DNA of 21,297 nucleotides from a virus. Positions within the stretch are counted from its first letter, which is position 1; every line of letters begins with the position of its first letter. Below, in pieces: positions 2,971 to 13,884 of this stretch. The notes below the pieces were generated by a model. The model was not told where the DNA came from, made no database searches, and saw only the letters and a program-made list of their open reading frames with translations. Position numbers and translations under genes: made by a program. The stretch is taken from IMG/VR virus record IMGVR_UViG_3300027736_000283, positions 1 to 21,297 of that record; one strand, given 5' to 3'.

Positions 2971-3077
2971 AAGGGCGTCAAGCCGCCATTGTAGGATGCA
3001 GTAATTGGGTAGTTTTGCGGCTTTCTTACTTATTTGTAACAACTGCCAAATACAGCCCCAATTATGACCCATTATAA
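2967..3077 (+). CDS. possible 36-residue peptide between SprT-like and VRR-NUC genes
   Basis: A short frame that starts with an ATGA overlap on the preceding stop and ends 14 bases inside the next gene. It fills the 93-base gap between the two genes and has a hydrophobic middle (WVVLRLSYLFV). No family is recognised. The same DNA contains a 7-base inverted repeat, so the gap may instead be a structured untranslated spacer. I list it because the coupling pattern matches the confirmed small genes here, but it may not be translated. Confidence 0.3.
   Translation: MKGRQAAIVGCSNWVVLRLSYLFVTTAKYSPNYDPL
2980..3023 (+). repeat. inverted repeat AAGCCGC / GCGGCTT
   Basis: Perfect 7-base arms at 2980-2986 and 3017-3023 flank a 30-base spacer and are followed by a pyrimidine-rich but broken T stretch. 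It could form a hairpin in the messenger between two nuclease-module genes. The loop is long for an intrinsic terminator, so its role is uncertain. Confidence 0.35.
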
Positions 3078-3357
3078 AAAGCGCACCGATGCCAACCATG
3101 CAGAAATCATGCAGGCATTTAAAAAACTTGGTGCTAGCGTATTAGACCTTTCTAGAGTGGGTATGGGTTGTCCCGACCTTTTAATAGGGATAGCAAATAC
3201 CAGCGCTTTAGTAGAAGTTAAGGTAGGTAATGCTAAATTTACCCCAGCGCAGGAAACTTTTATGACTAATTGGCAGGGAGGCACAGTTTCTAGGATAGAT
3301 TCCCCCGAAGCTGCCGAAAGATTGGTAAAATGTATGAAAGGACTAAATTATGACTGA
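3064..3357 (+). CDS. VRR-NUC domain nuclease
   Basis: A 97-residue stand-alone VRR-NUC domain, a branch of the PD-(D/E)xK superfamily related to FAN1 nucleases and thought to cut branched DNA such as Holliday junctions. The active-site residues are visible: Glu14 in the first helix, Asp38 in GCPDLLIG, Glu51-Val52-Lys53 in ALVEVKVGN and Gln63 in FTPAQETF. The length is right for the single-domain phage and prophage forms, which act as dimers in known members. A role in resolving replication or recombination intermediates before packaging is inferred from the family and from the neighbouring nucleases. It overlaps the following gene by 8 bases. No ribosome-binding site is obvious. Confidence 0.85.
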   Translation: MTHYKKRTDANHAEIMQAFKKLGASVLDLSRVGMGCPDLLIGIANTSALVEVKVGNAKFTPAQETFMTNWQGGTVSRIDSPEAAERLVKCMKGLNYD

Positions 3358-3709
3358 ATCCGTTGCCCTATTTGCTGCCACTTTGTTGCACTCAGCGACA
3401 AACACTCATTTCTTCCATTGGTCTACCAATTCATTTAGCCAGCATAAGGCACTTCAAAAATATTACGAAGGAATTGTAGATTTTGTAGATAGCTATATTG
3501 AGACATATATGGGCTGTTACGAACAAATCAAGTCCTTTCCCAATGTTTATCATCAGCCGAAAGATGCGCTGAAATACATGGAATCCCTTAAAAAATTTGT
3601 AGAAGAAGCAACAACCGACTTACCCAATGAACAGGCATTAGTCAATATTCTGGCAAACATAGCAGAATTGATTGATACCACCATTTATAAACTTAAATAC
3701 TTGAAATAG
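3350..3709 (+). CDS. ferritin/Dps-like phage protein (DUF5856-like)
   Basis: A 119-residue, all-helical protein resembling the phage family DUF5856. The N-terminal helices carry THFFHW (His20, His23, Trp24), His32 in FSQHKALQ, Asp47 and Glu51 in FVDSYIE. The His32-Asp47-Glu51 spacing (15, then 4) equals that of the E. coli Dps ferroxidase ligands His63, Asp78 and Glu82, and the His-Trp pair echoes Dps His51-Trp52 with a shorter loop. This suggests a four-helix ferritin-like bundle that may bind iron or another metal. It is shorter than Dps (about 167 residues), so the oligomer may differ. Actual function in the phage is unknown. The gene starts at an ATG inside the end of the VRR-NUC gene, so the two are coupled. 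Confidence 0.65.
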   Translation: MTESVALFAATLLHSATNTHFFHWSTNSFSQHKALQKYYEGIVDFVDSYIETYMGCYEQIKSFPNVYHQPKDALKYMESLKKFVEEATTDLPNEQALVNILANIAELIDTTIYKLKYLK

Positions 3710-3714
3710 ACTAT

Positions 3715-3891
3715 ATGCCAATGGACAAATCGGGCAGCGCCCAATCGGTAGGAAAGAACTATAAAACTGAAGTTGCCGCAGGAAAGCCAAAGAAACAAGC
3801 ATTGGCAATCGCATTGTCAGAAGAACGCACCCATGCTAAAGGCAAACGCAAGGCTAAGTTAGAAGCCGCTTACGCAAAGTATATGAAATGA
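3715..3891 (+). CDS. 58-residue basic conserved phage protein
   Basis: A short lysine-rich protein beginning MPMDKSGSAQSVGKN, followed by AAGKPKKQALAIAL and a basic tail (HAKGKRKAKLEAAY). The segment 'S-V-G-K-N-Y-K-T-E-V-A-A-G-K-P-K-K-Q-A' is a pattern I recognise from small conserved phage proteins of unknown function. With its high positive charge it may bind nucleic acid, which is inference. It lies 5 bases after the ferritin-like gene and 10 bases before the next charged protein. No ribosome-binding site is strong. Confidence 0.6.
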   Translation: MPMDKSGSAQSVGKNYKTEVAAGKPKKQALAIALSEERTHAKGKRKAKLEAAYAKYMK

Positions 3892-4167: not shown

Positions 4168-4434
4168 ATGACTGAAAAACAATCTAAAAATTCAAAAGGT
4201 GGCGCTAGGATAGGCGCTGGTAGACCTAAAGGCGCTCTAGACAAGGGCAATGCCACTCTTAGACAGATGATACTCAACGCATTAGATACGGCTGGTGGTG
4301 AGGCTTATTTAGCTTTACAAGCCCAAGAGAACCCTAATGCTTTCCTAAGTCTAATCGGTAAGGTATTACCTACAACTCTTGCTAGTGATGAAACCTCACC
4401 AATAAAGATGATAGTAAGTTGGAAGAAGTCTTAG
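4168..4434 (+). CDS. terS: small terminase subunit-like protein
   Basis: An 88-residue protein with the glycine-rich N-terminal motif GGARIGAGRPKGALDKGN common to many phage small-terminase-like proteins, followed by helices (TLRQMILNALD, LALQAQENPNAFLSLIGKVLP). Small terminases recognise the packaging site and hand DNA to the large subunit. It is shorter than most (typically 100-200 residues), so the oligomerisation part may be reduced. Immediate linkage to the large terminase, which it overlaps by 16 bases, supports the call. No Shine-Dalgarno sequence is visible before ATG 4168, and the leader is AT-rich. Confidence 0.7.
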   Translation: MTEKQSKNSKGGARIGAGRPKGALDKGNATLRQMILNALDTAGGEAYLALQAQENPNAFLSLIGKVLPTTLASDETSPIKMIVSWKKS

Positions 4435-5756
4435 AAGTCGAACTAGACTACTGTCCTAGAACAGTATTTGAAGATTTCCACGATAGGAAAGAACGCTGGG
4501 CTGTTATAGTTGCTCATAGACGCTGCGGCAAGACTCTGGGTTGTATCCTAGATTTAATCTACCGAGCAATCTCCGAAGGTAAAGAAGATGGCAGATACGC
4601 CTATGTCGCACCGTATTACAGTCAGGCCAAAAACATTGCTTGGGACTATCTACAAAGGTACTCTCAACCAGTCCTTGCAAAGGCTAATCAATCTGAACTA
4701 TGGGTCGAACTCGTTAACGGGGCAAGGATTAGACTCTTTGGTGCTGATAATCCTGATGCCTTGCGTGGTCTGTACCTTGACGGTATCGTTCTCGATGAAT
4801 ACGCTGATATGCGCCCGAGGATATGGGGCGAGATTATTAGGCCGCTACTCTCAGACAGACTAGGATGGGCAGTCTTTATTGGTACGCCTAAAGGCCACAA
4901 TGGGTTCTGGGAGTTGTATAGCGCAGCAGTAAACAAAGATGATTGGTATGTAAAGACTTTAAGAGCTAGTGTTACTGGCTTAATTCCTGACTCAGAGCTT
5001 GCAGACGCAGCTAAGTCTATGACTCAAGACCAATATTTACAAGAGTTTGAGTGCGACTTTGAAAGTGCTATTGTTGGTGCTTACTACGGTAAAGAGATGC
5101 GCCTACTGACAGACCAAGGCAGAATTACTAAGGTTGAGTATGACCCTATGTATAAAGTAAATACAGCTTGGGACTTAGGCTATACAGATAGCACCTCAAT
5201 CTGGTGGTATCAAGTCATCCATGGCGAGATAAGAGTCTTAGAACATCACTCAAGTAATGGTCAGTCAGTCCCATTTTATACAGGGCTAATACAGTCTAAA
5301 GATTACGATTATGGGATACATTGGTTGCCCCATGACGCTAGAGCTAAAACATTAAGTTCTGGTGGAAAGTCGATAATTGAGCAACTTTCTGCTAAAATTC
5401 CATTAGAATCTATGAAAATTGTGCCAAATTTGTCACTTCAAGACGGAATACAAGCAAGTCGCATGGCGTTACAGAGAGCTTGGTTTGATGGTGATAAGTG
5501 CATGGAAGGCATAGAGTGTTTAAGGCAATATCAGCGAGAGTATGACGAAGATAAGAAAGTGTTTAGGGATAGACCTAGGCACGATTGGACATCACACTCG
5601 GCAGACGCTTTTAGGTATTTGAGTATTGCCTGGCGGGAAGAAGAAAAAGTTGCCTCGAAAGATGACTCGATTAAGGGCTTATTTGTCGGTCAAACAGATG
5701 TTAGCCTTAATGACCTTTGGAAACAAAAGCAAAGGACAACGGGTGGGAGAATTTAA
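4419..5756 (+). CDS. terL: large terminase subunit (ATPase and nuclease)
   Basis: The 445-residue DNA-packaging motor. The N-terminal ATPase has a Walker A motif AHRRCGKT at 32-39 (Lys38, Thr39), an adenine-side QAKN segment near 69-72, Walker B LDGIVLDE at 120-127 (Asp126, Glu127) and the coupling motif GTPKG at 155-159. The C-terminal RNase H-like nuclease shows AWDLGYTD (Asp252, Asp257), a middle acidic segment (LPHDARAKT) and HSADAFRY near the end. Start: the frame is closed by a stop at 4389-4391 and offers no ATG before Walker A, so TTG 4419, inside the small-terminase gene, is the only reasonable start and implies coupled translation. The stop overlaps the portal ATG as TAATG. Complete and normal in length. 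Confidence 0.95.
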   Translation: MEEVLEVELDYCPRTVFEDFHDRKERWAVIVAHRRCGKTLGCILDLIYRAISEGKEDGRYAYVAPYYSQAKNIAWDYLQRYSQPVLAKANQSELWVELVNGARIRLFGADNPDALRGLYLDGIVLDEYADMRPRIWGEIIRPLLSDRLGWAVFIGTPKGHNGFWELYSAAVNKDDWYVKTLRASVTGLIPDSELADAAKSMTQDQYLQEFECDFESAIVGAYYGKEMRLLTDQGRITKVEYDPMYKVNTAWDLGYTDSTSIWWYQVIHGEIRVLEHHSSNGQSVPFYTGLIQSKDYDYGIHWLPHDARAKTLSSGGKSIIEQLSAKIPLESMKIVPNLSLQDGIQASRMALQRAWFDGDKCMEGIECLRQYQREYDEDKKVFRDRPRHDWTSHSADAFRYLSIAWREEEKVASKDDSIKGLFVGQTDVSLNDLWKQKQRTTGGRI

Positions 5757-12991: not shown

Positions 12992-13884
12992 ATCCGCACC
13001 AAGAATATAGACTAGCTTACGACCATCTACACGCAGGGCGTTATGAAGCTGGATTTCGTTTATTTGAATATCGTTGGCATCCTGAAGTTCAGGGTAATTT
13101 AATAGACGCTTATATTCAAAAGCCCAAAGGCGTATCACCTTGGCGAGGCGAATCTTTATTAGGCAAAACTATTGTAGTTCTTGCAGAACAAGGGTTTGGG
13201 GATATATTTCAATACGCTAGATTTCTACCTGCTTTAAAAGTTTTAGGCGCTAAAAAGGTTACATTCTTAGCTCATCAATCAGTTCTTAGGTTAATTGGGC
13301 AAATGGAATGTATCGATGTTCTAACTAACGCCAATGAAGGCGATGATGTTTTAAGCTCAAATTATTGGATAGGGAACATTTCGCTACCTCATTACATCTC
13401 ATTAGCTATGCCCTATGCTAAAACCCTGTTTCCCGTTACAAAGAGCAAAATCGTGGCTTCAGAGGGTTATTTTGATGTAGTGGCTACCAACATACCTAAA
13501 AAGATTGGAGTCAACTGGGGGGCTTCTAAGGGCAATCTGCACTATATTAAGTCAATAAACCCCCAACAGATAACCGAATTAGTTGGAGATGATTGTTATA
13601 GCTTTAATCCTGAAAGCAATGGCAATTTCTTGCCTTTACCCAATGACGGTTGGCAGCAAGATTGGAATACCACCGCTAAACACATGAAAGCCTGTAAGGG
13701 CATAGTGACTGTGGATACTGGAACTGCCCACTTAGCAGGCGCACTTGGCATTAAAACCATAGTTTTGCTACCTAAAGAAGAATTTGTCTGTTGGCGCTGG
13801 AAAAATGGGCGCTGGTATGACTCTGTAGTTGCTTTAAAACCCGAAGAATACGACCAAGTACCCGATTTAATAAGGAGAATGTGA
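12979..13884 (+). CDS. glycosyltransferase (GT9/GT41-like, TPR-type) with apparent ATT start
   Basis: A 301-residue protein if begun at ATT 12979. Residues 6-33 look like a TPR-type helix pair (EYRLAYDHLHAGRYEAG, FRLFEYRW), followed by PWRGESLLGKTIVVLAEQGFGD (53-74 region), the conserved nucleotide-sugar domain opening of TPR-linked glycosyltransferases, then the C-terminal IVTVDTGTAHLAGALG with LLP, as in GT9 heptosyltransferases. It probably transfers a sugar onto a virion or host-surface target; donor and acceptor are unknown. The first ATG (13303) would remove the TPR part and the EQGFGD motif, so it is not the natural start. The homology-bearing frame closes upstream at 12964-12966. The stop overlaps the next ATG. 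Confidence 0.75.
   Translation: MTTVNPHQEYRLAYDHLHAGRYEAGFRLFEYRWHPEVQGNLIDAYIQKPKGVSPWRGESLLGKTIVVLAEQGFGDIFQYARFLPALKVLGAKKVTFLAHQSVLRLIGQMECIDVLTNANEGDDVLSSNYWIGNISLPHYISLAMPYAKTLFPVTKSKIVASEGYFDVVATNIPKKIGVNWGASKGNLHYIKSINPQQITELVGDDCYSFNPESNGNFLPLPNDGWQQDWNTTAKHMKACKGIVTVDTGTAHLAGALGIKTIVLLPKEEFVCWRWKNGRWYDSVVALKPEEYDQVPDLIRRM

Follow-up and report, generated by a model that had tools for sequence, protein, structure and literature searches.

Dps assembles from dimers into a dodecameric cage and oxidizes Fe(II), preferably with H2O2. The two pairs of its ferroxidase ligands meet across a two-fold axis, and members of the family carry a short helix in the long connection between helices B and C. 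A Lys-rich N-terminal tail is found in Dps of the E. coli type only and is not universal. The metal-binding positions are referred to below as the A site and the B site. Dps is also borne by phages, as described in passages of PMC8008677 for gut phages (Gratiaviridae and others) and Lactobacillus phages, in which a role in oxidative stress was proposed. Two less well-characterized proteins are also pertinent. The rI.-1 gene of T4 is treated in review passages (PMC6832632) as an accessory lysis-inhibition gene of undefined role, whose over-expression slightly delays the collapse of lysis inhibition, as recounted there from Golec et al. 2010; according to a passage of PMC3622015, phage RaK2 lacks T holin and RI but has a protein resembling rI.-1. 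Gp217 of the Kuttervirus Sajous1 was called a ferritin by Phyre2 (confidence 96.7) and was detected in CsCl-purified virions, according to passages of PMC10892097. As will be seen, both proteins belong to Pfam family DUF5856 (PF19174), to which Pfam assigns no function. The open-access literature that was searched, mostly as records without full texts, contained no mention of DUF5856 and no tie of rI.-1 to Dps, and no work on phage or viral ferritins or Dps in the DUF5856 family was found among titles and the opening lines of abstracts.

The window analysed here is the whole stretch of DNA in the virus record, 21,297 bases in length. A megablast search of the entire window against 50,697 phage records produced no match. 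The features relevant to this study are as follows.

3064-3357, plus strand: upstream gene for a VRR-NUC or Holliday-junction-resolvase-like nuclease (PHROG 93, E 7.9e-11)
3350-3709, plus strand: DUF5856/PHROG 858 gene for a putative mini-Dps-like protein of 119 aa (ATG start; open reading frame read, Pfam and PHROG matches, AlphaFold2)
3407-3409, plus strand: His20 codon; the matching Dps position, three residues ahead of the ligand His, is basic in 30 of 31 sequences
3416-3421, plus strand: His23-Trp24 codons, His23 corresponding to Dps His51 (A-site ligand)
3443-3445, plus strand: His32 codon, corresponding to Dps His63
3455-3457, plus strand: Gln36 codon, aligned with Dps Asp67; no acidic ligand
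3488-3490, plus strand: Asp47 codon, corresponding to Dps Asp78; presumably a ligand contributed by the other subunit
3500-3502, plus strand: Glu51 codon, corresponding to Dps Glu82; presumably contributed by the other subunit as well
3715-3891, plus strand: small downstream gene with a PHROG 2423 match, function not named
4419-5756, plus strand: terminase large subunit gene (PHROG 2, E 4.7e-35, scanned as 4434-5753)

The start of 3350-3709 shares 8 nt with the end of the upstream ORF, whose PF08774 score of 23.6 bits is slightly below the cut-off of 23.8. Given this overlap and the start of the next ORF at 3715, the gene is part of a gene cluster. The placement of the gene just before packaging genes, as originally described, is borne out by the terminase large subunit gene. 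Further upstream are a SprT-like metalloprotease (PF10263) and a metallophosphoesterase, at 2608-2970 and 1625-2626, respectively; a phosphoesterase is also situated near a relative of the 119-aa protein in another locus (L090). Elsewhere in the window, ORF 13303-13884, placed between long repetitive ORFs and the gene for the major head protein, has a match to glycosyltransferase family 9 (PF01075) that covers residues 124-155 only and is barely above the cut-off.

The 119-aa protein matched DUF5856 with an E value of 4.3e-23 and a score of 82.6 bits, as compared with a cut-off of 34.6; residues 23-115 aligned with positions 1-94 of the 94 in the profile. It matched PHROG 858 with an E value of 8e-24. 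By these sequence measures it is a full member of DUF5856/PHROG 858, and no difference from the family was found. In a tblastn search with the protein, 628 phage records contained relatives at E<0.01, RB16 rI.-1 among them; 1055 records were obtained at E<1, those listed including RB49 rI.-1 and Kuttervirus Cba120 orf108, and 12 of these phages were included, along with T4, in a member alignment. The IMG/VR loci obtained for four different members were the best 80 of 91, 34, the best 80 of 102, and 19. In view of the 628 records, and of the relative already called a virion ferritin (PMC10892097, in part), the initial annotation went too far in describing such a protein as unusual for a phage. 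NCBIfam contained no family for the protein, and a peptide-pattern search of genome contigs revealed no relatives of it. A search with PF19174 of genomes from the phylum of an Escherichia genome gave a match in just 1 of 398, so that, within that genome set, this is mainly a phage family; cellular membership of DUF5856 was set aside on this basis. The lone match (locus L345, 1459-1815; DUF5856 E value 1.1e-9) derives from a genome of 0.9 Mb. Its product has the short loop of the phage proteins, but is acidic at the place of Dps Asp67 and has a Lys three residues before the His of the HW pair; in our own reading of its sequence, it may fall between Dps and the phage family.

Some records required separate treatment. 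The IMG/VR copy of RB43 rI.-1 (L354, 2501-2882) has a broken reading frame, and the RB43 records in the phage collection gave a one-piece alignment over residues 2-118. The Methylophilaceae phage P19250A was considered as a link to lysis genes and was dropped, as the adjacent gene annotated as a 'holin' (L082, 20354-20791) resembles, in our own reading, an HNH nuclease.

The residues listed above were all found where the initial annotation had put them, with codons beginning at 3407 (His20), 3416 (His23-Trp24), 3443 (His32), 3488 (Asp47) and 3500 (Glu51). To assess conservation, 230 sources were searched with a profile made from 15 ligand-bearing sequences, yielding 229 proteins. Three of these were left out of the count as incomplete, and the 226 that were long enough comprised 167 distinct sequences. 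The columns invariant across 15 diverse members were Met1, His20, His23, His32, Asp47, Glu51 and Leu115. Among the distinct relatives, His23, His32, Asp47 and Glu51 were each present in 167 of 167, and theirs were the only columns to reach that number; His20 was present in 166, with Arg in the exception (L228). The intervals of 15 residues from His32 to Asp47 and of 4 from Asp47 to Glu51, which had been likened to those of the Dps ligands, are exact in this protein and in every one of the 167. Relatives were found partly by means of peptide patterns that contain ligand residues, a bias that is checked only in part by the ligand-free subset, in which the five residues were again invariant (29 proteins matched only by ligand-free search peptides); they were likewise invariant in 10 proteins with no exact match to a search peptide. 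Residue spacing alone is weak evidence, since H-15-D-4-E arose in 1.4% of 200,000 shuffles of the 119-aa protein; H-(9 or 12)-H-15-D-4-E arose in 0.07%, and H-9-H-15-D-4-E led by HW in none. It is the conservation across the 167 relatives that settles, at the level of sequence, the reality of the ligand motif.

The initial annotation had left open whether the counterpart of Dps His51 was the His of the HW pair or His20. The former was upheld, with a loop three residues shorter, and His20 was ruled out. The His23-His32 spacing is 9 residues in 154 of the 167 relatives and 12 in the other 13, and it is this three-residue longer loop, which restores the exact Dps spacing of 12, that identifies His23 as the equivalent of His51. 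The structural alignment with E. coli Dps leads to the same assignment, since its offset is 28 (residue 1 of the model = Dps 29); in the T4 rI.-1 model, the offset (13 = 31) places T4 His33 on Dps position 51. Both offsets were taken from the first aligned residues alone and not from residue-by-residue alignments, and by both of them the His of the HW or HF pair would sit on Dps His51. At the place of Dps Asp67, most of the 167 relatives have Gly (92) or Gln (65), and only four (T4, T2, RB16 and RB49) have an acidic residue, so that this Dps ligand is replaced outside the T-even branch. The family thus appears, from its sequences, to have kept the A-site ligands of Dps along with His63, the B site being mostly incomplete.

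AlphaFold2, with 52 sequences, predicted a four-helix bundle (pLDDT 96.9, pTM 0.89) in a single-chain model, with helices at residues 2-25, 29-56, 73-90 and 95-117. In a Foldseek search of the PDB, Dps occupied ranks 1 to 8, with probabilities of 0.91 to 1.00 and E values of 0.08 to 0.29; no match reached an E value of 0.001, either with this model or with that of T4 rI.-1. VIA gave a Z score of 13.3 to MsDps2 (rmsd 2.5, 119 residues aligned) and 12.4 to E. coli Dps, both alignments being full length. YciF, bacterioferritin and CopM also gave Z scores above 11, the YciF-type proteins being close to Dps, and a Z score near 13 can be attained by common helical bundles and is not decisive alone. 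The fold comparison and the conservation check that had been proposed in the initial annotation thus gave a four-helix bundle that is matched best, for the most part, by Dps in the PDB, and His32, Asp47 and Glu51 in 167 of 167 relatives, and the ferritin/Dps-like, ferroxidase-type character that it had suggested is sustained by the predicted fold and by the alignment of the four invariant residues with Dps ligands.

The model also bears on how a metal might be bound. His32 and Asp47 lie on one unbroken predicted helix, and at a rise of 1.5 Å per residue the 15 residues between them amount to about 22 Å. It follows that His23/His32 and Asp47/Glu51 cannot bind one metal within one chain. The joint invariance of the two pairs is most simply explained if they meet across a two-fold axis, and the model accordingly suggests a metal site common to two subunits, as in Dps.

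Matches to the predicted fold were also seen in BFVD. Those to A0A6J7WIS1, A0A6J7XDU5 and A0A8S5MNG7 are to large phage proteins with a similar region. Matches named as prohead proteases were of 432 and 333 aa (E values 0.2 and 0.3) and one named as a NUDIX hydrolase was of 713 aa (5e-3); the regions in the large proteins may be domains of ferritin type joined to proteins of head maturation or to others. A0A481ZC29 and A0A7D3V608, proteins of Pithovirus LCPAC404 and Fadolivirus, also resemble the fold (5.5e-4 and 1.3e-3).

Comparisons at the level of sequence were performed as well. The best match of the single 119-aa protein among PDB sequences was NapA (3t9j), a weak lead with an E value of 0.0086. 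With the family profile, Dps was first (2d5k, 5.8e-6), with NapA 1ji4 at 1.9e-5, in a search in which a designed helical protein also scored (4.5e-5). PF00210 (Ferritin) was not among the matches of the 119-aa protein at E values up to 10 with the HMMER filters on; a relative with the longer loop (L119) scored 12.6 bits, below the cut-off of 24.5, as compared with an E value of 1.6e-22 for E. coli Dps. Profile-profile comparisons used a set of 31 Dps sequences (E. coli Dps and 30 sequences from genomes in the phylum to which the Escherichia genome belongs, two of the E. coli-type sequences being identical), which replaced a set of nine enterobacterial Dps that gave an hhalign probability of 9.3 and was set aside as too narrow a profile. 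All 31 have His, His, Asp and Glu at positions 51, 63, 78 and 82, and Asp or Glu at position 67; the residue three before the ligand His is basic in 30 (K 16, H 8, R 6).

The hhalign comparison of the 167-member profile with the 31 Dps gave a probability of 91.7 (E 7.8e-7) and paired the ligand residues of the family with the ferroxidase ligands of Dps. Forty column-shuffled controls gave probabilities no higher than 4.1, and a reversed Dps profile gave 0.5. When the four ligand columns were masked, with an input lacking insert columns, the probability decreased from 89.7 to 14.9, and when four other conserved columns were masked (20 trials) it ranged from 52 to 93. The drop to 14.9 indicates that the sequence signal comes in large part from the ligand motif. 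After masking, positions 32, 47 and 51 were still aligned with their Dps partners, residue 23 falling outside the shorter alignment, and the register of helix B is therefore independent of the ligand motif.

Gene neighbours were determined for 74 representatives with less than 90% identity, using script-called genes and leaving out proteins longer than 700 aa. Among the 73 upstream neighbours, for the best 25 of 64 families, PHROG 93 endonuclease was found 12 times, PHROG 5702 Holliday junction resolvase 11 times, PHROG 96 HNH 8 times, and three RusA-like families, which may overlap, 6 times each. Among the 72 downstream neighbours, for the best 25 of 81 families, PHROG 2423 was found 12 times, HNH families 9 times, and terminase small subunit 6 and 3 times. 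Among the matches listed, named upstream neighbours are thus most often nucleases and resolvases, and named downstream neighbours HNH and terminase small subunit genes. Proximity to DNA-processing nucleases and packaging genes fits late DNA protection and proves nothing.

T4 rI.-1, as read directly from its locus (L095), matched DUF5856 with an E value of 5e-33 and so belongs to the same family. Its residues His33, His42, Asp46, Asp57 and Glu61 make up the full five-residue Dps set. An AlphaFold2 model of an identical copy (L346) has a pLDDT of 92.3 and four main helices. Foldseek placed 3fse (ferritin-like domain) first for this model, followed by Dps chains and CopM (rank 4), and the VIA Z scores, 14.2 to MsDps2 vs 13.7 to a YciF-like entry, are a tie by the rule of that tool; the T4 sequence alone found no Dps in the PDB at E values up to 5. 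From its sequence and model, T4 rI.-1 is probably a protein of the Dps type in which the ligand set is complete, and we regard this as the most useful result of the analysis.

Sajous1 gp217 is also a DUF5856 protein (profile E value 2.3e-42), identical to Cba120 orf108 (117/117). Its virion count was 10, alongside 196 for gp214, 32 for gp215 and 20 for gp216 (PMC10892097, in part). The label 'putative structural protein', given in Kuttervirus records, was disregarded, as the ferritin-fold PDB entry 7tmv bears that name and may be its source. In our own reading, gp214, gp215 and gp216 (L230, 6642-9898) have similar Phe/Tyr/Pro-rich starts with a Glu within about 12 residues, presumably recalling the capsid-targeting sequence of T4 internal proteins. 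That sequence is mentioned in a passage of PMC3012670. These three may be internal head proteins; gp217 is without such a start.

The observations made here concern family membership, the predicted fold, the conservation of the ligands, their register with Dps and the gene context. A Dps-like fold and metal site are well supported by sequence and model, and an iron protein is likely. We consider it probable that the gene encodes a miniaturized, Dps-like ferroxidase, with subunits paired as in Dps, that protects DNA chemically. By analogy with Dps, its most likely function would be to bind and oxidize Fe(II), limiting oxidative damage late in infection. Two subunits would pair in Dps fashion to create the metal sites, each formed by His23 and His32 of one chain and Asp47 and Glu51 of the other. 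Fe(II) would be bound there and oxidized, probably with hydrogen peroxide, so that both Fenton reactants might be removed while late phage DNA is being recombined and packaged. Because a lysine tail like that of E. coli Dps is absent, protection would be chemical and not by coating of DNA. For the DNA protection envisaged in the initial annotation, a mechanism by direct binding is not supported, inasmuch as the basic tail has no counterpart in a protein whose first helix is predicted to begin at residue 2; the observation on which that annotation rested is thus confirmed, and its interpretation partly supported. A low pI was dropped as an argument against DNA binding, E. coli Dps being equally low: the values are 5.66 for the 119-aa protein and 5.72 for E. 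coli Dps, so near to each other that net charge says nothing on the matter.

The absence of an acidic ligand at the Asp67 place from most members could weaken di-iron chemistry, and it lends some weight to a different function, in which a site for a single metal (Zn, Mn or Fe) stabilizes the dimer or acts as a metal sensor, and the protein is a scaffold or has a regulatory task such as the control of lysis timing proposed for T4 rI.-1. The fold similarity to CopM, annotated as silver- and copper-bound, would suit such a protein, as would the 4 nt that the T4 rI.-1 gene shares with the rI antiholin gene and the slight effect of rI.-1 over-expression noted above (PMC6832632, in part). However, rI.-1 itself retains all five Dps ligands, RaK2 possesses a protein like rI.-1 but neither T holin nor RI (PMC3622015, in part), and lysis-inhibition families are rare among the upstream neighbours (PHROG 1246 in 3 of 73 and PHROG 9446 in 2 of 73, possibly overlapping, for the best 25 of 64 families). 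We judge a binder of metal that is not a ferroxidase to be somewhat unlikely. The label of PHROG 858, 'starvation-inducible transcriptional regulator', would make the protein a DNA-binding regulator of transcription, but a single predicted four-helix bundle spanning residues 2-117 leaves no space for a further domain that binds DNA, and the label would most simply have been inherited from the name of Dps; this function is very improbable.

The presence of gp217 in purified virions raises the idea of a packaged protein that carries iron, either for entry (the Ferrojan horse idea) or for protection of the packaged DNA. Low counts such as that of gp217 may nevertheless reflect debris, and tonB and feoB mutants were infected similarly (PMC10892097, in part). 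Moreover, no single virion gene recurred beside the family among the best 25 of 64 upstream and best 25 of 81 downstream families. A virion role for the 119-aa protein is therefore regarded as quite improbable. The preferred interpretation, a Dps-like ferroxidase, can be extended to DUF5856 as a whole, in a broader proposal that we offer as an unlikely one: miniature Dps ferroxidases would be phage-wide, with T-even rI.-1 coupling iron or peroxide state to lysis inhibition by buffering or reporting oxidative load while lysis stays blocked, and with the proteins acting elsewhere as DNA shields that are sometimes virion-borne.

These results give DUF5856, a family represented in T4 as well as in hundreds of phage records, a testable predicted metal site, and they provide a chemical lead for T4 rI.-1 and for the virion 'ferritin' of the Kuttervirus. 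A Dps-type site in which, for the most part, four ligands are left, in a protein of about 119 residues, bears, in addition, on the minimal needs of a ferroxidase.

In comparison with known systems, the phage protein shares with Dps, NapA and MrgA the four-helix bundle and the His51, His63, Asp78 and Glu82 ligands, with exact spacing in helix B, and, with Dps, a basic residue at the third position ahead of the ligand His. It differs in having 119 aa, as opposed to 167 in E. coli Dps, an A-B loop that is three residues shorter (in 154 of the 167 phage relatives), a non-acidic residue (Gln36) at the Asp67 place, no predicted helix between B and C (residues 57-72) and no Lys tail of the E. coli type, helix A being predicted from residue 2. 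Since Asp67, the B-C helix and the Lys tail are absent, it is best described as a relative of Dps in a family of its own and not as Dps proper. The Dps of gut and Lactobacillus phages is likewise phage-borne, and these are Dps-family enzymes by description; it is by description only that they are set beside DUF5856 here. Sajous1 gp217 and Cba120 orf108 belong to the same family as the 119-aa protein, but to another phage group and another gene neighbourhood. T4 rI.-1 and its Straboviridae relatives share the family and the predicted fold with the 119-aa protein, whereas rI.-1 has an N-terminal extension, an acidic residue (Asp46) at the Asp67 place and a gene that adjoins rI.
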